Origin: Psychroserpens ponticola
GTDB taxonomy: Bacteria > Bacteroidota > Bacteroidia > Flavobacteriales > Flavobacteriaceae
Length of the DNA: 64,000 nt
NCBI RefSeq assembly: GCF_023556315.2
Contig: NZ_CP116221.1
Location: 2,367,001 to 2,431,000 of the forward strand
Direction of reading: 5' to 3'
Made by a program: the position numbers and the translations under genes
Shown: piece after piece, positions 23,369 to 31,239 of the stretch
Position numbering within the stretch: position 1 is the stretch's first letter
Layout of the letters: every line of letters starts with the position of its first letter
The notes under the pieces: model-generated
The model's database searches: none
What the model was told of the DNA's origin: nothing
The model's input: the letters and a program-made list of their open reading frames with translations, nothing else

Positions 23369-23411
23369 TGTTTAACATATATCTAAAATAGTTAAACATA
23401 TCGTATATTTA
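23369..23411 (+). promoter_or_regulatory. Promoter with paired dyad TGTTTAA-N16-TTAAACA, unit 1
   Basis: TGTTTAA (23369-23375) and TTAAACA (23392-23398) form an inverted repeat with 16 bases between. Five bases later comes TATATTTA (23404-23411), a near match to the -7 consensus. The start codon of the TetR gene is 18 bases further on. The same sequence, spacing and distance to the -7 box recur at 26932-26974. No TTTG is present at the -33 position, which falls between the half-sites. This looks like a regulated promoter for the TetR-ABC1-DUF2867 operon. Confidence 0.72.
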
Positions 23412-23428
23412 CATCGTAATATTTTATC

Positions 23429-24082
23429 ATGGGAAAAAAGAAAAACATAAATAGCAATGATTTAATTACTTTCTACATGGATTACGTTTTAGAACACAAC
23501 CATAATCCTAAAACTGTATATGCATTTGCAAAAGCTAATAATTTTGAAGAGCAAAAATTTTATGAATTCTTCAGTTCTTTCAAATCCATAGAGAAACACA
23601 TATTCAAAGCATTTTATGATAATACATATAATGCTCTAGAAAGAAATGATGACTACCATTCGTTTGATGCAAGACATAAATTGCTAAGCTTCTATTTTAC
23701 ATTTTTCGAAAATTTAACAGCCAACAGAAGCTACGTTATTTATGCTCTTGAAAACCACAAAAATAGCTTAAAGGGTTTACAACTACTTTCTGAACTAAAA
23801 CATGCTTTTATCAATTACATTGGAGGTTTAGAAATAGAACTTATAGACGTTAAGCAAGCGCAAATAGATAAAATTCAACGTCGTGGGCTCAAAGAATCTG
23901 CTTGGTTACAGCTATTAATAACTCTCAAATTCTGGATGGATGATACATCTTCTAGCTTTGAGAAAACAGACATTTTTATTGAAAAATCAATCAATACAAG
24001 TTTTGATATTCTCGACGTTGCACCTATGAAAAGCATTATAGACTTTGGAAAATTTATTTTCAAAGAAAAAATTCAAATGTAA
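23429..24082 (+). CDS. TetR-family regulator-like protein
   Basis: This 217-residue protein has an N-terminal helix-turn-helix region (TVYAFAKANNFEEQKFYEFF) and a helical C-terminal domain of the Bacteroidetes TetR C-terminal type. Compared with classic TetR proteins the DNA-binding segment is diverged (FAKANNFEEQKFYEFFSSFKSIEKHIF), so DNA binding is likely but less certain. The 14-base gap to the ABC1 kinase gene implies co-transcription. An upstream dyad could be its own operator, a common arrangement. It is not known what ligand it senses. Confidence 0.72.
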   Translation: MGKKKNINSNDLITFYMDYVLEHNHNPKTVYAFAKANNFEEQKFYEFFSSFKSIEKHIFKAFYDNTYNALERNDDYHSFDARHKLLSFYFTFFENLTANRSYVIYALENHKNSLKGLQLLSELKHAFINYIGGLEIELIDVKQAQIDKIQRRGLKESAWLQLLITLKFWMDDTSSSFEKTDIFIEKSINTSFDILDVAPMKSIIDFGKFIFKEKIQM

Positions 24083-24096
24083 TAAATTAGTCCAAA

Positions 24097-25407
24097 ATGA
24101 AAACGATAGATAACATACCAACATCAAAAATACAACGTGCATCGAAATTAGTTTCAACAGGTGCCAAAGTTGGCGTGAACTATCTAAAGTATTATGGAGA
24201 TAAATTAACCAAAACAGAACTAGAAGCAAAAGAACGTTTAAACAAAAATAATGCTACAGATATTTACGATGGATTAAAACAATTAAAAGGAAGTGCTCTA
24301 AAAGTTGCTCAAATGCTAAGTATGGAAAAAAGCATAATGCCTCAAGCCTATGTAGAAAAATTCTCTTTAGCCCAATTTTCTGTACCACCTCTTTCACCAC
24401 CTTTGGTAATAAAAACATTTAAAAAATACTTTGGAAAACTTCCAAGGGAATTATATGATACTTTTAATGCAACGTCTGTAAATGCTGCCAGTATTGGACA
24501 AGTCCATGTGGCAACTAAGGATGGGAAAAAACTTGCTGTGAAAATCCAATATCCAGGCGTTGCAGAAAGTATCGCTTCAGATTTAGCCATGGTAAAACCA
24601 ATTGCCATGAGCATGTTTAATATTAAAGGAAAAGGCTCTGATAAGTATTTTAAAGAAGTTGAACATAAATTAGCAGAAGAAACAGACTATATTCTAGAAG
24701 TAAAACAAAGCAAAGAAATTGTTGAAGCTTGCAGTCATATTCAAAATCTAAAATTTCCTCAATATTATGAAGCACTTTCTAATGAGAGAATCATCACTAT
24801 GGATTATATGGTTGGTGAACATCTTTCAGAATTTGCAGCACATAATACAAATCAGGAAGTCGCTAATAAAATAGGACAAGCTCTTTGGGACTTTTATATG
24901 TATCAAATTCACAATCTTAAAAAAGTACATGCAGATCCGCATCCAGGAAACTTTCTTATTTCTGAGGATTCTAAACTCATCGCTTTAGATTTTGGTTGCA
25001 TGAAGATAATTCCAGAAGAGTTTTACAAACCTTATTTTGAATTGGCTGAAACAGAAAACATAGTAAACAAAGCAAAATTTGAAACAAAACTCTACGAGCT
25101 TGAAATTTTACGCAAAGATGACTCAAAAGAAGAAATTGTTTTTTTTACAGCAATGTTTCATGAAATGTTGAGTCTTTTTACACAACCATTACATGCTGAA
25201 ATCTTTGATTTTTCAGATGATACATTCTTCGGAAAAATTGCAGCATTAGGTGAAAAATATTCTAAAAATACGGAGTTACGCAAAATGAATGGAAATAGAG
25301 GTTCTCAACATTTCATCTATATGAATCGAACATTTTTTGGCCTATATAATTTAATGTTCGATTTAAAAGCGAAAGCTATTACCATTAATAATTTTCGAAA
25401 CTTATAA
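24097..25407 (+). CDS. ABC1/AarF (UbiB-like) atypical kinase family protein
   Basis: This 436-residue protein has the UbiB/ADCK-type kinase layout: an A-rich ATP loop in NAASIGQVHVA, the lysine in KLAVKIQYPG, the catalytic HADPHPGNFLI and the metal-binding LDFGCMKI. The usual KxGQ N-terminal motif appears as KVAQMLSME, with alanine for glycine. Family members act in isoprenoid quinone or lipid homeostasis as atypical kinases or ATPases. Within this operon it may protect membrane lipids or quinones from oxidative damage; that is inference. Confidence 0.87.
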   Translation: MKTIDNIPTSKIQRASKLVSTGAKVGVNYLKYYGDKLTKTELEAKERLNKNNATDIYDGLKQLKGSALKVAQMLSMEKSIMPQAYVEKFSLAQFSVPPLSPPLVIKTFKKYFGKLPRELYDTFNATSVNAASIGQVHVATKDGKKLAVKIQYPGVAESIASDLAMVKPIAMSMFNIKGKGSDKYFKEVEHKLAEETDYILEVKQSKEIVEACSHIQNLKFPQYYEALSNERIITMDYMVGEHLSEFAAHNTNQEVANKIGQALWDFYMYQIHNLKKVHADPHPGNFLISEDSKLIALDFGCMKIIPEEFYKPYFELAETENIVNKAKFETKLYELEILRKDDSKEEIVFFTAMFHEMLSLFTQPLHAEIFDFSDDTFFGKIAALGEKYSKNTELRKMNGNRGSQHFIYMNRTFFGLYNLMFDLKAKAITINNFRNL

Positions 25408-25422
25408 TACTTCTATTAGGTT

Positions 25423-26847
25423 ATGAAAATCCTTGTAACAGGTGCAACAGGCTACATTGGGAAACGGATAATTCCGTTATTACTCAATGACCATCATCGT
25501 GTTGTTTGTGCGATTAGAGATAAACTTCGTGCTGATAAAAATTATGCAAATGAAGATTTAATTGAAATTGTTGAAGCCGATTTCTTAAAGCCTGAAACAC
25601 TACACAATATTCCAAAAGATATTGATATTGTCTATTACTTGATTCACTCTATGTCCAACTCTTCAAACGATTTTGAATCACTAGAGGAACGTTGTGCTAT
25701 TAATTTCAAAAACTACATAGAAACCACAAATGCCAAACAAGTCATTTACCTTAGTGGAATTACCAATGAAACTAATTTATCTAAACATCTTCAATCACGA
25801 AAAAATGTGGAAGACTGTTTAAAATCTGATGCCTATGGTCTCACCATTTTTAAAGCAGGAATCATTGTCGGCTCTGGTAGTTCTTCATTTGAAATTATAA
25901 GAGATTTAGTTGAAAAATTACCATTTATGATTGCTCCAAAATGGTTAAACACAAAAACACAACCTTTAGCTGTTAGAGATGTTTTGGCATTCTTACACAG
26001 AAGTGCCGGAAAAGAGAAATTATATAATAAATCGTATGATGTTTTTGGTTCTGAAGTATTAACCTATAAACAAATGCTGTTACAATTTGCAGAAGTAAGA
26101 AGTCTAAAACGGTACATTTTAACGGTTCCTATTATGACTCCTAAACTATCCTCCTATTGGTTGTATTTTGTCACTTCAACGTCTTACAAATTAGCATCTT
26201 CATTGGTAGATAGTATGGGAATTCAAATCATTGGAAAACCAAGTAATATCAATAAAATTCTAGAGGTCAATCCTATGACTTACAAACAAGCTGTTGAATT
26301 AGCTTTCGAAAAAATAGAACAAAATAGTATTGTTTCTAGCTGGAAAGACTCTATGATAAGCAGCGGAAGACTTAGAAATAATCTTCATAAATATATCAAT
26401 GTACCAAAATATGGTTGTTTTACAGATTATAAAGAACGTAAAGTCATAAATACTGAAAAAACTATTGATAAAATCTGGAGTATTGGCGGAAAAAATGGTT
26501 GGTATTACGGTACATTTCTTTGGAAAATAAGAGGTTATATCGATAAACTATTTGGAGGCATCGGTTTACGCAGAGGTAGAACAAGTCCTACCAATTTAGA
26601 AGTTGGTGACGCCTTAGATTTTTGGCGAGTTATTTATGCAGACAAAGCACAACAAAAACTTCTACTCTATGCAGAAATGAGACTTCCTGGTGAAGCTTGG
26701 TTAGAATTCAAAATTGAAGAGGGTTTACTCAAACAAACAGCTACTTTCAGGCCTAGAGGGATTTGGGGCAGATTATATTGGTATAGTGTATTACCTTTTC
26801 ATGGTTTTATATTCAAAGGAATGATAAACAAGCTTGTAACAGTTTAA
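25423..26847 (+). CDS. NAD(P)-binding DUF2867 domain protein
   Basis: This 474-residue protein has an N-terminal Rossmann fold with the GATGYIGKRIIP nucleotide loop, an atypical SDR catalytic region (YLSGITNETNLSKHLQSR) and a C-terminal DUF2867 domain (residues about 320-474: IWSIGGKNGWYYG, LDFWRVIYAD, RPRGIWGRLYWYSVLPFH). Such proteins often occur with photolyase and TIGR03643 genes. The reaction is unknown. It is 15 bases downstream of the ABC1 kinase gene and appears to end this operon. Confidence 0.83.
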   Translation: MKILVTGATGYIGKRIIPLLLNDHHRVVCAIRDKLRADKNYANEDLIEIVEADFLKPETLHNIPKDIDIVYYLIHSMSNSSNDFESLEERCAINFKNYIETTNAKQVIYLSGITNETNLSKHLQSRKNVEDCLKSDAYGLTIFKAGIIVGSGSSSFEIIRDLVEKLPFMIAPKWLNTKTQPLAVRDVLAFLHRSAGKEKLYNKSYDVFGSEVLTYKQMLLQFAEVRSLKRYILTVPIMTPKLSSYWLYFVTSTSYKLASSLVDSMGIQIIGKPSNINKILEVNPMTYKQAVELAFEKIEQNSIVSSWKDSMISSGRLRNNLHKYINVPKYGCFTDYKERKVINTEKTIDKIWSIGGKNGWYYGTFLWKIRGYIDKLFGGIGLRRGRTSPTNLEVGDALDFWRVIYADKAQQKLLLYAEMRLPGEAWLEFKIEEGLLKQTATFRPRGIWGRLYWYSVLPFHGFIFKGMINKLVTV

Positions 26848-26931
26848 GAGATCTTAGTTAGACATTAATGAATTCATTTTTACTTAATTCACAATACTAT
26901 AACTAAAATCTATAGTGATATGTTATTTTTT

Positions 26932-26974
26932 TGTTTAAACATACATTATAAACATTAAACATTTTGTAAATTTG
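26932..26974 (+). promoter_or_regulatory. Promoter with paired dyad TGTTTAA-N16-TTAAACA, unit 2
   Basis: TGTTTAA (26932-26938) and TTAAACA (26955-26961) flank 16 bases; five bases on, TAAATTTG (26967-26974) matches the -7 consensus exactly. The left half-site is part of the ten-base palindrome TGTTTAAACA. All spacings equal those of the dyad at 23369-23411, and the -33 TTTG is missing here too. It would drive the eight-gene operon ending with photolyase. Predicted transcription start is near 26980. Confidence 0.75.
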
Positions 26975-27035
26975 AGTATTATGAAATCTATAATCATCAG
27001 GTTTTAGATTACAGGATTCCAAATAATTAATTAAA

Positions 27036-27071
27036 ATGAGGTATCTGCAATTTAATTTTCAATTTACGTAA
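27036..27071 (+). other. Possible 11-codon leader reading frame coupled to the next gene
   Basis: ATG at 27036 opens a frame encoding MRYLQFNFQFT. Its TAA overlaps the ATG of the TIGR03643 gene (TAATG at 27069-27073). In a transcript starting near 26980 this frame would be translated just before the first gene and could couple or tune its translation. Such short frames also arise by chance in AT-rich leaders. Confidence 0.3.
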
Positions 27072-27343
27072 TGAAATTAGATCTAATTACGACTGATAGA
27101 ATCATAGAAATGGCTTGGGAAGATAGAACCACTTTTGAAGCTATAGAATTTCAATTTGGCTTAAAAGAACAAAACGTCATTAAACTGATGCGGAAAGAGA
27201 TGAAACCCAAAAGTTTCAAAATGTGGCGCAAACGAGTTCAAGGTCGTAAAACAAAACATGAAAAATTACGAACATTTTCAGAGGGTAGATTTAAATGTTC
27301 CAGACAAAAACAGATAACCCAAAACTCGATATCTAAACGATAA
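27071..27343 (+). CDS. TIGR03643 (DUF2805) family protein
   Basis: This 90-residue basic protein matches the TIGR03643 pattern: RIIEMAWEDRTTFEAIEFQFGL, then EQNVIKLMRKEMKPKSFKMW and KRVQGRKTKHEKL. A helix-turn-helix-like fold is likely. These small proteins are found next to photolyase, SDR and related light- or oxidative-stress genes in many bacteria; the molecular function is unknown. It is the first gene of an apparent eight-gene operon. Confidence 0.87.
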   Translation: MKLDLITTDRIIEMAWEDRTTFEAIEFQFGLKEQNVIKLMRKEMKPKSFKMWRKRVQGRKTKHEKLRTFSEGRFKCSRQKQITQNSISKR

Positions 27344-27397: not shown

Positions 27398-27622
27398 ATG
27401 GAATTAATAAACAAAGCCTTAGAGTTCGAGAAAAGAAAGATGAAGTCACTTTCAACAAGTGATCGTGTTAAAATTTCTCGTGAAGCAAAAGCCTTGATAT
27501 TAGATTTAAATAAAATTTACATTGAACGTAAAGATCAAAAAATAATGGACCTTATGAAGCGCTTAACTCTAATCAAAAGAAAAGTTGAAAAGCGTTTAAA
27601 AGGCGCTCCATTAACAGCATAA
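27398..27622 (+). CDS. Small helical protein of unknown function
   Basis: This 74-residue protein is strongly basic and almost wholly helical (NKALEFEKRKMKSLSTSDRV... RLTLIKRKVEKRLKGAPLTA), possibly a short coiled-coil. The start at 27398 is an ATG preceded by an A-rich leader. No family was recognised. It lies between TIGR03643 and the SDR gene, where many genomes carry other small proteins, and it has no cysteine pairs of the DUF2256 type. Confidence 0.55.
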   Translation: MELINKALEFEKRKMKSLSTSDRVKISREAKALILDLNKIYIERKDQKIMDLMKRLTLIKRKVEKRLKGAPLTA

Positions 27623-27633
27623 CTTAACTTCAA

Positions 27634-28317
27634 TTGAAAACATATATCATTATTGGAGGTAGTCGAGGTATTGGCAACGCAATAGTTCATACGCTACTTA
27701 AACATCATAAGGTGATTAATATTAGCAGAACAAAACCAGAGCTAGTGCACAACAACCTCATGCATTACAATTGTGACATTCTTACTGATGATTTACCAGA
27801 AATAGAAATAGCAGACGGCTTAGTCTATTGTCCTGGTAGTATCAATTTAAAACCGATAAATCGTTTAAACTTAGATGAATTTAGATCAGATTATGAAATA
27901 AATGTCATAGGTGCTGTAAAAGCGATTCAAAAGTATTTGACTATTATTAAAAATGGCAAAAACCCATCTATCATTTTGTTTAGTACAGTTGCTGCTAAAT
28001 TAGGAATGCCATTTCATGCAAGTGTTGCAGCTGCTAAATCTGGAGTTGAAGGCTTAGTAAAATCATTAGGAGCAGAACTAGCTACCACACTTAGAATAAA
28101 CGCTATTGCTCCTACTGTAACGAATACTGATTTAGCTTCAAAACTATTACGCAATGACAAAATGATTGAAAATATTGCAGAACGTCATCCAATGAAAAAA
28201 TTCTTACAACCAGAAGATGTGGCTGGTATGGCTGAATTTTTATTATCCGAAAAATCAAGTTCAATTTCAGGACAAATCTTTGAAATGGATTGTGGAATCG
28301 TGAGTTTCAAATTATAA
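27634..28317 (+). CDS. SDR family oxidoreductase with atypical active site
   Basis: This 227-residue protein starts at a TTG 12 bases after the preceding stop. The Rossmann loop GGSRGIGNAIVH and the NVIGAVKAIQ helix are those of classical SDRs. The catalytic Tyr-x3-Lys is altered: the segment HASVAAAKSGVEGL keeps the lysine, but the tyrosine position holds valine. The usual serine region is LFSTVAAKLG. A role in redox metabolism under light or oxidative stress is inferred from the operon. Confidence 0.85.
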   Translation: MKTYIIIGGSRGIGNAIVHTLLKHHKVINISRTKPELVHNNLMHYNCDILTDDLPEIEIADGLVYCPGSINLKPINRLNLDEFRSDYEINVIGAVKAIQKYLTIIKNGKNPSIILFSTVAAKLGMPFHASVAAAKSGVEGLVKSLGAELATTLRINAIAPTVTNTDLASKLLRNDKMIENIAERHPMKKFLQPEDVAGMAEFLLSEKSSSISGQIFEMDCGIVSFKL

Positions 28318-28318
28318 T

Positions 28319-28798
28319 ATGGATCAAACTTCTATTTACGATATCAAAATTAAGAACCTTAACGGAAAACCTTTAGAACTATCAAATTTTAAAGGCAAAT
28401 ACATTCTCTTTGTTAATGTCGCATCAAAATGTGGATTTACACCTCAATACAAAAGCTTGCAAGAACTATATGATAATTATAAGGACAAGCTTGTTGTCAT
28501 CGGTATTCCTTGCAATCAATTTGGAAAACAAGAACCAGGAAATGCAAAAGCTATTGAATCCTTTTGTGAAATAAATTATGGTGTCACCTTTCCTATAACC
28601 GAAAAATTAGATGTAAAAGGAACCAACCAACACCCTTTATATACTTGGCTAACTCAAAAGCAATTGAATGGATCATCAAATTCTAGTGTCAAATGGAATT
28701 TTCAGAAATATCTAGTTGGTCCACAAGGTGAATTTATCAACTATTATTTTTCGTTGACGTCACCAACAAGTTCAAAAATCACTAAACACTTAAAATAG
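28319..28798 (+). CDS. Glutathione peroxidase-like thiol peroxidase
   Basis: This 159-residue protein has the family signature NVASKCGFTPQYKSLQ, with the peroxidatic cysteine at about residue 38. The glutamine motif is PCNQFGKQEPG and the tryptophan-asparagine motif is SVKWNFQKYLV. A second cysteine in ESFCEINYGV could be the resolving residue, making it thioredoxin-dependent rather than glutathione-dependent. It reduces hydroperoxides in the cytoplasm. It starts one base after the SDR gene. Confidence 0.92.
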   Translation: MDQTSIYDIKIKNLNGKPLELSNFKGKYILFVNVASKCGFTPQYKSLQELYDNYKDKLVVIGIPCNQFGKQEPGNAKAIESFCEINYGVTFPITEKLDVKGTNQHPLYTWLTQKQLNGSSNSSVKWNFQKYLVGPQGEFINYYFSLTSPTSSKITKHLK

Positions 28799-28806
28799 CT
28801 ACTATT

Positions 28807-28974
28807 ATGTTCGGATTATTTAAGACAAGTTCTGAAGCTGATAAACTTCAAAAAAAGTATAAAAAACTTATGAAAGAATGGCATACATTATCGACTACAA
28901 ATAGATCTGAAAGCGATAAAAAATACGCTGAAGCCGAGAAGATTCAAGAACAAATAAAGCACTTACAAAACTAA
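28807..28974 (+). CDS. Lacal_2735 family small protein
   Basis: This 55-residue protein (MFGLFKTSSEADKLQKKYKK...) is an amphipathic helical protein with the YAEAEKIQEQI end characteristic of the flavobacterial Lacal_2735 family. Its start lies eight bases after the peroxidase gene and its stop overlaps the TspO start (TAATG). Function is unknown; the operon suggests expression in oxidative or light stress. Confidence 0.8.
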   Translation: MFGLFKTSSEADKLQKKYKKLMKEWHTLSTTNRSESDKKYAEAEKIQEQIKHLQN

Positions 28975-29441
28975 TGCTCATGAAGTTCTTCAAACCATTC
29001 ATCATTTTCTTAATCATTAACTTTAGTGCTTTAGGTATTGGCTCTTTATTTATGGCTAATGGTCCAAAAGGCGATTGGTATATGCAGTTAGAAAAAGCAC
29101 CTTGGACTCCTGAAGGATGGGTTTTTGGAGCCGCTTGGACCATCATAATGATTTGCTTTTCAATTTATATGGCATTTCTGTATTTAAAACGATTCACCAA
29201 AAAAGTAATAACACTTTTTATCATACAGTTTATCCTTAATATAAGCTGGAACCTTCTGTTTTTTAATCTGAAATTAGTTGATTTAGCTTTAGTTAATATC
29301 ATATTACTTACCTTAATTGTGATTGCATTTCTCATTACTTATGCTAAAGATTTAAAAGGTAAATCGCTATTAATCTTACCTTATGCTATTTGGCTATGCA
29401 TTGCCACTTCACTCAATCTATACATTTCATTATATAATTAA
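28974..29441 (+). CDS. TspO/MBR family tryptophan-rich sensory protein
   Basis: This 155-residue protein has five hydrophobic helices and the tryptophan-rich motif around residues 25-55 (WYMQLEKAPWTPEGWVFG, AAWTIIMICFSIY). TspO proteins bind tetrapyrroles and influence porphyrin handling and light- or oxidative-stress responses. The start may be the overlapping ATG at 28974 or the ATG six bases later. Its place next to a photolyase fits protection from photosensitising porphyrins, as inference. Confidence 0.92.
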   Translation: MLMKFFKPFIIFLIINFSALGIGSLFMANGPKGDWYMQLEKAPWTPEGWVFGAAWTIIMICFSIYMAFLYLKRFTKKVITLFIIQFILNISWNLLFFNLKLVDLALVNIILLTLIVIAFLITYAKDLKGKSLLILPYAIWLCIATSLNLYISLYN

Positions 29442-29451
29442 TATGCTCTAA

Positions 29452-29919
29452 ATGAAAATTTACAGGTTACATAAAAAGCAAAATTTACCTATATCAATTG
29501 ATACCGCTTGGGAATTTTTATCCAATCCAAAAAACCTAAAAACAATAACACCAGATTATATGGGATTTCATATTCTCTCAGGAGCAGACAGGCCAATGTT
29601 TGCAGGACAAATCATTCAATATATTGTCACTCCAGTTTTAGGTATCAAAACAAAATGGGTGACTGAAATCACACATAGTGTAGACAAAAAGTATTTTGTT
29701 GATGAACAACGTTTCGGACCATATGCATTATGGCATCACAAGCATTTTATAAAAGAAATTGATGGAGGTGTTGAAATGGAAGACATTATAGATTATAAAG
29801 TCCCTTTCGGAATTTTAGGTCAACTCGTTCATCCATGTATTGTAAAACCAAAATTGGAAGAAATTTTCAATTATCGGACTAAAAAATTGGAAGAAATATA
29901 CGGAACTTATAATTCATAA
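29452..29919 (+). CDS. SRPBCC (START-like) family protein
   Basis: This 155-residue protein has a helix-grip fold pattern (SIDTAWEFLSNPKNLKTITPDYMGF near the start; YVDEQR-type strand FVDEQRFGPYALWHH; C-terminal long helix LEEIFNYRTKKLEEIY). Members bind hydrophobic ligands or act in polyketide and cell-division-related roles. It is ten bases after tspO and 15 before the photolyase gene. Genes of this type often neighbour photolyases in flavobacteria. Confidence 0.8.
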   Translation: MKIYRLHKKQNLPISIDTAWEFLSNPKNLKTITPDYMGFHILSGADRPMFAGQIIQYIVTPVLGIKTKWVTEITHSVDKKYFVDEQRFGPYALWHHKHFIKEIDGGVEMEDIIDYKVPFGILGQLVHPCIVKPKLEEIFNYRTKKLEEIYGTYNS

Positions 29920-29934
29920 ATCAATAGTATTTTA

Positions 29935-31239
29935 ATGAAACAACCACTGAATATTTTCTGGTTTAGACGTGATTTACGTTTAGATGACAATGTTGGACTA
30001 TTTAACGCATTAACAGACGAACACCCTGTATTACCTATTTTCATTTTTGATTCAGAAATCTTAAGCGAATTACCAGAAGATGATGCTAGAGTGACATTCA
30101 TTCATGACACTTTACAAAACATGCTTATATCACTTCAAAATGACTATGGTAGTAGTTTAGCTATATTCCACGGAAAACCTATTGATATTTACAAGCAGTT
30201 AATTAACGACTATGAAATTCATTCTGTGTTTACAAATCACGATTATGAACCTTATGCGAAACAACGAGATTTAGAAATAAAAACCCTTTTATCTAATCAT
30301 AATATTGAATTCAAAACATTCAAAGATCAAGTGATTTTTGAAAAAGATGACGTTGTAAAACAAGATGGAAAACCTTATTTGGTTTACACGCCTTATATGA
30401 AAGTTTGGAAGACACAGTTCAGATCTCAAAATCTAGAAATCTATGATACTACATCTCACTTCGGAAACCTTATTAAAAATTCAGAGTTCCCTAATCTAAG
30501 TCTCAGTGATATTGGGTTTACAGCATCAAAACAAAAGATTGCTCAATATTCTGTCTCGTCATCACTTATTCAAAACTATGAAGCCACAAGAAATTTCCCA
30601 GCGAAAGATGCTACATCACGATTAGGACCTCATCTACGCTTTGGAACGGTTAGCATTCGTAAAATGGTTCAAAAAGCTATTTCAGAATCCAATGAGGTGT
30701 TTTGGCAAGAATTAATTTGGAGAGAATTTTTCATGCAAATCTTATGGCATTTTCCACATACCGTTAAAGATGCTTTCAAATCGAAATACGATAGAATACA
30801 ATGGCGTAATAATGAAACTGAATTTAAGCATTGGTGTGAAGGAAAAACAGGTTATCCGTTAGTAGATGCTGGAATGCGTGAACTCAACGAAACTGGCTTT
30901 ATGCATAACAGAGTTCGGATGTTGGTTGGCAGCTTTTTATGCAAACATTTATTAATTGATTGGCGATTAGGCGAAGCTTACTTTGCTGAAAAATTACATG
31001 ATTATGAAATGGCTAGTAATATTGGTAATTGGCAATGGGTTGCTGGTTCTGGTGTTGACGCTTCACCTTATTTTAGGATTTTCAATCCGACTACTCAAAT
31101 ACAGAAGTTTGACAAAAACCATAACTACATAAAAAAATGGGTTCCAGAATATCAAGACGTCTCCTATCCAGGACCAATGGTCGACCATAAAGAAGCTAGA
31201 GAGCGTTGTTTAAAAGTGTATAAGGAAGCTGTTAGCTAA
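29935..31239 (+). CDS. Cryptochrome/deoxyribodipyrimidine photolyase family protein
   Basis: This 434-residue flavoprotein has the N-terminal photolyase domain (NIFWFRRDLRLDDNVGLF), the FAD-binding region (RLGPHLRFGTVSIR), and the C-terminal signature NIGNWQWVAGSGVDASPYFR with the EMASNIGNW helix. It uses blue light to split cyclobutane pyrimidine dimers; some relatives are cryptochromes. Length and motifs fit a class I CPD photolyase (phrB type). It is the last gene of the operon started at 26932. Confidence 0.92.
   Translation: MKQPLNIFWFRRDLRLDDNVGLFNALTDEHPVLPIFIFDSEILSELPEDDARVTFIHDTLQNMLISLQNDYGSSLAIFHGKPIDIYKQLINDYEIHSVFTNHDYEPYAKQRDLEIKTLLSNHNIEFKTFKDQVIFEKDDVVKQDGKPYLVYTPYMKVWKTQFRSQNLEIYDTTSHFGNLIKNSEFPNLSLSDIGFTASKQKIAQYSVSSSLIQNYEATRNFPAKDATSRLGPHLRFGTVSIRKMVQKAISESNEVFWQELIWREFFMQILWHFPHTVKDAFKSKYDRIQWRNNETEFKHWCEGKTGYPLVDAGMRELNETGFMHNRVRMLVGSFLCKHLLIDWRLGEAYFAEKLHDYEMASNIGNWQWVAGSGVDASPYFRIFNPTTQIQKFDKNHNYIKKWVPEYQDVSYPGPMVDHKEARERCLKVYKEAVS

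Follow-up and report, generated by a model that had tools for sequence, protein, structure and literature searches.

A shared inverted repeat before two gene sets of Psychroserpens ponticola as the probable operator of a CarH-type B12 photoreceptor

Why should two promoters in one part of the Psychroserpens ponticola genome carry the same inverted repeat, TGTTTAA-N16-TTAAACA, at the same distance from their -7 boxes, and which protein reads it? The two dyads lie in a 64-kb stretch of this 4.03-Mb genome (G000:C1:2367001-2431000; hereafter the window, meaning the whole stretch analysed), and an earlier note on this DNA had placed one of them before a TetR-ABC1-DUF2867 gene set and the other before a run from a TIGR03643 protein through a photolyase. 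These gene sets were found as described, as were, on re-reading the window, the sequence and coordinates of the dyads and the exactly five bases (TATCG and TTTTG) that separate each from its -7 box; that the genes behind each dyad form operons is inferred. The note saw here a candidate stress regulon and thought of the TetR-type protein or an unseen MerR protein or sigma factor as its regulator. Our analysis upholds the regulon, and the MerR guess proves right in kind: the dyads very probably serve as operators for a MerR-B12 photoreceptor of the CarH/LitR type, whose gene stands next to crtI some 1.36 Mb away, whose occupancy in the dark would block transcription and which light would release.

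The gene of this protein (G000:C1:1036709-1037605, minus strand) adjoins carotenoid genes, as is expected of the CarH/LitR family. The third exact dyad of the genome (G000:C1:1036652) ends immediately 5' of the ATG of a crtI-like gene whose product matches Pfam Amino_oxidase and which is followed downstream by genes for a squalene/phytoene synthase, a hydroxylase and a lycopene cyclase; this amine-oxidase-type desaturase next to the MerR-B12 gene we take to be crtI (phytoene desaturase). The fourth exact dyad (G000:C1:709618) has a fasciclin-domain gene on one side and a MORN-repeat gene on the other. Searching the genome at an expect value (E) of 0.01 gave no further homologue of the MerR-B12 protein. 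This protein combines an N-terminal MerR domain (Pfam MerR_1, E 2.5e-15) with a C-terminal B12 domain (B12-binding_2, E 3.9e-7) that carries the W-x9-EH and ExHxxG motifs, whose residues W143, E153, H154, E191, H193 and G196 do not vary among the 16 relatives aligned, and it matches Thermus CarH in sequence with E of about 5e-13. The predicted model (predicted local distance difference test score, pLDDT, 87.7) aligns with DNA-bound Thermus CarH (5c8e) with Z 18.5 over 269 aligned residues, the root-mean-square deviation (rmsd) of 11.2 being high because the domains are shifted; its B12 part alone gives Z 18.1 and rmsd 2.4 over 196 residues against 9s06, and the predicted fold is thus that of CarH. 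The genome also encodes a cobalamin adenosyltransferase. A single cobalamin riboswitch match was seen in it as well, at G000:C1:2486155-2486358.

CarH proteins studied elsewhere are described as binding DNA in the dark as adenosylcobalamin-bound oligomers and leaving it in the light, with operators that overlap the -35 or -10 region (PMC9304148, PMC8156234). By analogy with them, the protein encoded here would bind adenosylcobalamin, form an oligomer in the dark and be released by light; its dependence on B12 and light, and its action as a repressor, are carried over from the same proteins. In the dark, the CarH-like protein with its adenosylcobalamin would sit on the dyad and keep RNA polymerase from the promoter, whereas light would break the Co-C bond and make the protein leave the DNA. 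Its release would switch on the TetR-ABC1-DUF2867 set and the photolyase/TspO/peroxidase run, and the same switch would serve carotenoid synthesis and the fasciclin protein, as well as the katG and proteorhodopsin genes of relatives.

What else stands under the dyad was judged from 73 exact sites with their neighbours, from G000 and 17 other genomes, drawn from a part of the dyads found (those at G017:C69:23047 and G009:C1:14996, for example, are not among the 73). By our assignment, 56 of them adjoin seven recurrent families: fasciclin (14 sites), TetR (13), a 143-residue family with no Pfam match (9), katG (7), crtI (6), Porph_ging (5) and relatives, recognized by eye, of the 155-residue protein of the window (2). 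One site each was found before folE, CIA30, proteorhodopsin/blh and a gene for an extracytoplasmic function (ECF) sigma factor. The photolyase operon, too, is among the gene sets that have the dyad in front of them in relatives. The sites fall mainly into two registers. In the first, the dyad overlays the -7 box, whose first base is at offset 15 counted from the start of the dyad, and the presumed start point; this register comprises 27 of the 73 sites, with crtI (6/6), katG (7/7), Porph_ging (5/5), 8 of the 14 fasciclin sites and one other. In the second, which includes both window promoters, the dyad is shifted upstream by 20 bp onto the -33 region, often with a further half-site, TGTTAA, 10 bp upstream of it; 22 sites have the -7 box at offset 35 and three more at 34, namely TetR (13/13), the 143-residue family (9/9), the DUF2805 site of the window and two others. 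Dark occupancy would act over the -7 box and start in one class (crtI, katG, proteorhodopsin and part of fasciclin) and over the -33 region in the other. At carH loci, a dyad with at most one mismatch stands within about 120 bp behind carH in 25 of 30 cases, and since it ends directly at the ATG in 21 of the 30, the crtI message may well be leaderless.

Three side observations concern these sites. In the long katG leader, a second block, TTATCGC-N2-GATAA, which may be the site of another regulator, follows the dyad in five of seven loci (L131, L134, L139, L155, L157) and is absent from L121 and L146. In G046 (L100), which belongs to an outlying family, the dyad before the ECF sigma gene is about 0.7 kb from carH, an arrangement reminiscent of LitR-LitS pairs. 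Behind the second window dyad, the first frame is the DUF2805 gene, 109 bp away (26932-27071), while the dyad of relatives precedes instead a protein of 141-148 residues (unk143) with no Pfam match (L106, L115, L122, L124, L135, L138, L144, L149, L158).

The existence of two registers 20 bp apart suggests the best of the alternatives, namely that the same CarH-like protein is a repressor at dyads placed over the -7 box but an activator at the window promoters, where the dyad lies over the -33 region. Activators form the majority of the MerR family (PMC9478572), and the upstream-register promoters indeed lack a -33 consensus: as the earlier note had pointed out, the window promoters have no -33 element, the 27 bases upstream of each -7 box being free of TTG except for one that abuts the second box. 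However, the overlapping class is equally devoid of a -33 box at the usual spacing, and the missing box is therefore no mark of activation. A classical MerR activator site, with the dyad between -35 and -10 and a spacer of 19-20 bp, was considered and rejected for either register, as the centre of the dyad coincides with either the -33 region or the -7 box, and neither register shows a -33 box. Thermus CarH, whose site includes the -35 region, and Bacillus CarH, with sites on -35 or -10, are described as repressors; as studied CarH operators overlap -35 or -10, both registers have precedent as repression. Activation at the window would also give the photolyase and carotenoid genes opposite responses to light and dark. 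On balance, we regard activation at the window promoters as rather unlikely.

If a CarH-like repressor reads the dyad, the two should travel together through the family, and they do. In a first sample of 57 genomes, 23 of them from the same genus, the dyad occurs in 35 of 42 genomes with a CarH match and in one of 15 without, against 4 of 57 for the reversed control; within the genus only G001 lacks a CarH match, and only G001, which also lacks the TetR gene, is without a dyad. In a family-wide sample of 397 genomes the dyad was found in 312 and the reversed control in about 46 (a hand count). Taking matches at E 1e-60 or better as close CarH, it is present in 287 of 293 close-CarH genomes, in 10 of 28 with divergent CarH only and in 15 of 76 CarH-less genomes (20 listed and 56 obtained by subtraction, with cross-tabulated lists compiled by hand); among genomes at least 95% complete the figures are 249/255, 10/26 and 0/23. 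G338, whose CarH match reaches only E 3e-19, was placed in the weak class from that match. Within-genus comparisons by hand agree: in 12 genera (g1, g50, g66, g78, g127, g167, g200, g7, g52, g222, g249, g132) the close-CarH members carry at least one dyad and a member without close CarH, at least 94% complete, is dyad-free. The opposite pattern is seen in g40, g70, g125, g216, g223 and g252, where less complete CarH-less members have dyads, and the CarH-bearing member of g40 has none. This co-occurrence, together with the recurrent target families, supports the shared regulator that the earlier note had proposed for both window operons.

The promoters of proteorhodopsin genes provide a further case. 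Such a gene is present in 98 of the 397 genomes, and 70 of the promoters were read (260 bp upstream, once slightly more; 28 left out). A dyad with at most one mismatch precedes the gene in 45 of 53 CarH-bearing genomes, in 3 of 16 CarH-less ones and not in the one weak-CarH genome, as against 0/53, 1/16 and 0/1 for the reversed control; the three CarH-less cases are G123 (81% complete), G191 (73%) and G099 (86%), in the last of which the control matches too. In a second, named collection of 80 proteorhodopsin loci, possibly overlapping the first sample, 4 loci without upstream DNA were dropped; 62 of the remaining 76 have the dyad and none the reversed control, and 38 of these 62 have their -7 box within the dyad, at offset 14. 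Exact dyads occur in Olleya aquimaris, Pricia antarctica, Flavobacterium luteum and Robiginitalea sediminis, among others. The 2013 Dokdonia genome paper (PMC3587595) states that proteorhodopsin regulation in flavobacteria needs further work, and photolyase-related genes are reported as enriched in proteorhodopsin-bearing Flavobacteriia (PMC5932025). Flavobacterial-type proteorhodopsin genes were also met in metagenome-assembled genome records titled Bifidobacterium breve and Rhodobacteraceae (L259, L308), which are probably mislabelled or mixed bins.

Further evidence comes from the recognition helix. It reads HTIRIWE in all close CarH proteins inspected (16/16 in one alignment, 9/9 in another set), whereas 27 of the 28 divergent proteins, when read, gave 21 of the form HTxRKWE, five HTxRIWE and one HTLRVWE (three of the 27 have no match to ExHxxG); the aligned Thermus CarH has Q at this position, residue 26. 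The change of Ile to Lys here co-varies with the fourth position of the dyad arm, TGTTTAA versus TGTCTAA. The five divergent genomes of the Ile type have two to four TGTTTAA dyads each, while 16 of the 21 Lys-type genomes have none and five have one. The variant dyad TGTCTAA-N16-TTAGACA was counted in stretches of at most 20 kb around carH and at TetR promoters: the 21 Lys-type carH stretches contain seven such dyads (6 loci) and no TGTTTAA dyad, and 14 Ile-type stretches contain eight TGTTTAA dyads (8 loci) and no TGTCTAA dyad. In five genomes the changed dyads are flanked by carH and a fasciclin gene, and in one by carH and a crtI-like gene. The exact C-form is also found at the TetR promoters of G083, G305, G306 and G388 and in half-forms at those of G274 and G110, but no C-form dyad was seen at those of G059, G085 and G212. 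A Lys residue facing G is chemically plausible. Together with the co-occurrence and the recurrent targets, these changes strongly suggest that the CarH-like protein binds the dyad directly.

This co-variation argues against the next alternative, in which the dyad belongs to some other factor, a further MerR protein or a sigma/anti-sigma system, that merely co-occurs with CarH. Such a factor would account for the dyads in the 15 CarH-less, incomplete genomes, and one ECF sigma gene, that of G046, does carry a dyad; it would leave unexplained why residue 26 of the CarH helix follows the fourth base of the arm and why the changed dyads lie between carH and the fasciclin or crtI genes. Moreover, the -7 boxes are ordinary, both window boxes matching the flavobacterial consensus TAnnTTTG quoted in PMC3587595 (the first with A in place of the last G), and a special sigma factor is not needed. 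We consider another factor quite improbable.

The TetR protein was a further candidate, as its gene stands directly behind the first dyad and TetR genes are often autoregulated; in this case it would bind both dyads and control itself along with the photolyase genes. Indeed, of the 30 TetR loci read, 25 (all but G023, G029, G032, G037 and G039) carry a dyad with no more than one mismatch upstream of the TetR start, nearly always 28-32 bp from it; four or five bases separate this dyad from the -7 box that follows, and exact dyads precede the gene in 9 of 9 further close-CarH genomes. Presence and absence point elsewhere. Close-CarH genomes with no TetR match retain the dyad in 36 of 39 cases at 95% completeness or more (56/59 at any completeness), and genomes with TetR and no CarH match have it in none of 5 (6/13 at any completeness). 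The TetR promoters of the CarH-less G103, G224, G340 and G202 lack it (3-5 mismatches at best), and dyads also precede crtI, katG and proteorhodopsin genes. The TetR protein was thus rejected on these counts, and a role for it as the regulator of both operons is very unlikely.

Chance in AT-rich DNA can practically be dismissed, as the note had held, for although the window has no excess at two or fewer mismatches (4 found against a mean of 2.7 expected) and its signal therefore resides in the exact form, that form occurs twice and none of 400 dinucleotide-preserving shuffles reached two matches (one had a single match), the family-wide count far exceeds its reversed control, and the distance from the dyad to the TetR and crtI starts is nearly fixed. 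In the whole genome there are four exact dyads and no reversed control. At one or fewer mismatches the count (6) is not above the control (8), so the two extra sites, G000:C1:2586673 and G000:C1:3325119, may be due to chance and are not claimed as members.

Several observations nevertheless weigh against CarH as the reader of the dyad, or against its role as a repressor. The protein scores 78 bits against the NCBIfam CarH equivalog NF052513, whose cut-off is 400, and is therefore not filed as that equivalog. An exact dyad is absent from six close-CarH genomes and present in 15 that have no CarH, each of these less than 95% complete. A nearby dyad is missing from 5 of 30 carH loci, from four TetR promoters in genomes that do have a CarH match (G023, G029, G032, G039) and, within one mismatch, from 8 of 53 proteorhodopsin promoters of CarH-bearing genomes; six of the 14 fasciclin sites fall outside the offset-15 register. 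The window promoters, having no -33 box, would fit activation as well. As to the co-variation, position 26 was singled out after inspection (it falls within the recognition helix), 15 of the 21 Lys-type carH stretches lack the changed dyad, and G297, of the Ile type, has a mixed TetR site contrary to the rule. The earlier note had reasoned that many sites inside genes or before unrelated genes would undo the regulon: only one of the 73 sites was flagged within an open frame (probably a start mis-call), and 17 of the 73 stand beside genes outside the seven families, some housekeeping-like. Several of these neighbours look unrelated, presumably obg, metK and an hsp90-like gene. The operators described for Thermus and Bacillus CarH consist of three to four tandem 11-bp direct repeats, nnnnTnnACAn, an arrangement that is not found here. 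Finally, one Dokdonia paper describes constitutive proteorhodopsin expression in strain PRO95.

The features of the two window loci are collected below.

Features of the two dyad-bearing loci (positions within the 64-kb window)
Feature	Position	Strand	Remarks
Additional half-site TGTTAAA	23359..23365	+	10 bp upstream of left arm of dyad 1; common in TetR class
Dyad 1, TGTTTAA-N16-TTAAACA, putative CarH operator before TetR-ABC1-DUF2867	23369..23398	+	kept at equivalent place in most TetR loci read
-7 box TATATTTA, promoter 1	23404..23411	+	offset 35 from dyad start
TetR family protein (TetR_C_23)	23429..24082	+	
ABC1/UbiB-like kinase	24097..25407	+	
NAD(P)-binding protein with DUF2867	25423..26847	+	
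Dyad 2, TGTTTAA-N16-TTAAACA, putative CarH operator before photolyase gene run	26932..26961	+	
-7 box TAAATTTG, promoter 2	26967..26974	+	offset 35 from dyad start
TIGR03643/DUF2805 protein	27071..27343	+	
74-residue protein, no family found	27398..27622	+	
Short-chain dehydrogenase-like protein	27634..28317	+	
Glutathione peroxidase-like protein	28319..28798	+	
TspO	28974..29441	+	
155-residue protein, no Pfam match	29452..29919	+	look-alikes (by eye) in two other genomes carry their own dyad
Photolyase/cryptochrome family protein	29935..31239	+	

The LitR regulons of Pseudomonas and other bacteria are governed by MerR-type light regulators and include photolyase and related genes among their targets; class II LitR has no B12 domain, unlike the CarH-like protein of P. 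ponticola. MliR of Bizionia, a MerR-like protein described as having no effector domain, was set aside as a different protein. The system resembles the CarH systems of Thermus thermophilus and Bacillus megaterium in its MerR and B12 domains, its W-x9-EH and ExHxxG motifs, its crt targets, the predicted fold (shared with Thermus CarH) and the overlap of its sites with the -35 or -10 region, and the TAAACA of the dyad arm fits, by eye, the TnnACA core described for their operators. It differs in that the operator is an inverted repeat with 7-bp arms and a 16-bp gap, with a further half-site 10 bp out in one class, and in its many scattered target genes, including proteorhodopsin. CarA and CarH of Myxococcus xanthus are likewise described as repressors of a carotenoid promoter, with inverted repeats noted in the CarA operator (PMC9304148), yet that operator spans about 55 bp at the crt promoter, whereas here short dyads stand at several unlinked places. 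In Sediminicola sp. YIK13, crtI has been reported to have a MerR-family gene before it, and proteorhodopsin to have a carotene dioxygenase gene as its neighbour (PMC4732338); what that account offers on these genes does not extend to an operator, a regulon or a connection with the control of proteorhodopsin. A literature search, with most subscription papers outside its reach, found no link between CarH and proteorhodopsin and no account of the operator. The operator design and the two promoter registers thus appear to be new, as does the likely control of proteorhodopsin.

The dyad supplies a candidate regulator, and a site that can be mutated, for proteorhodopsin and the photoprotection regulon in a large bacterial family, and the model predicts dark repression and B12 dependence of both. 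The pairing of Ile with T and Lys with C would be a natural specificity switch, and the dyad would add a new type of operator to a family of photoreceptors that is used in optogenetics. It is quite possible, although we put this forward tentatively and would not yet call it probable, that Flavobacteriaceae use a B12-based green/blue-light photoreceptor as master switch for proteorhodopsin phototrophy, carotenoids, photolyase and peroxidases, that the two registers 20 bp apart set different outputs and that the change between Ile and Lys accompanied a parallel rewriting of the operators. If so, phototrophy in this family would be tied to B12, and the harvesting of sunlight would depend on the vitamin.

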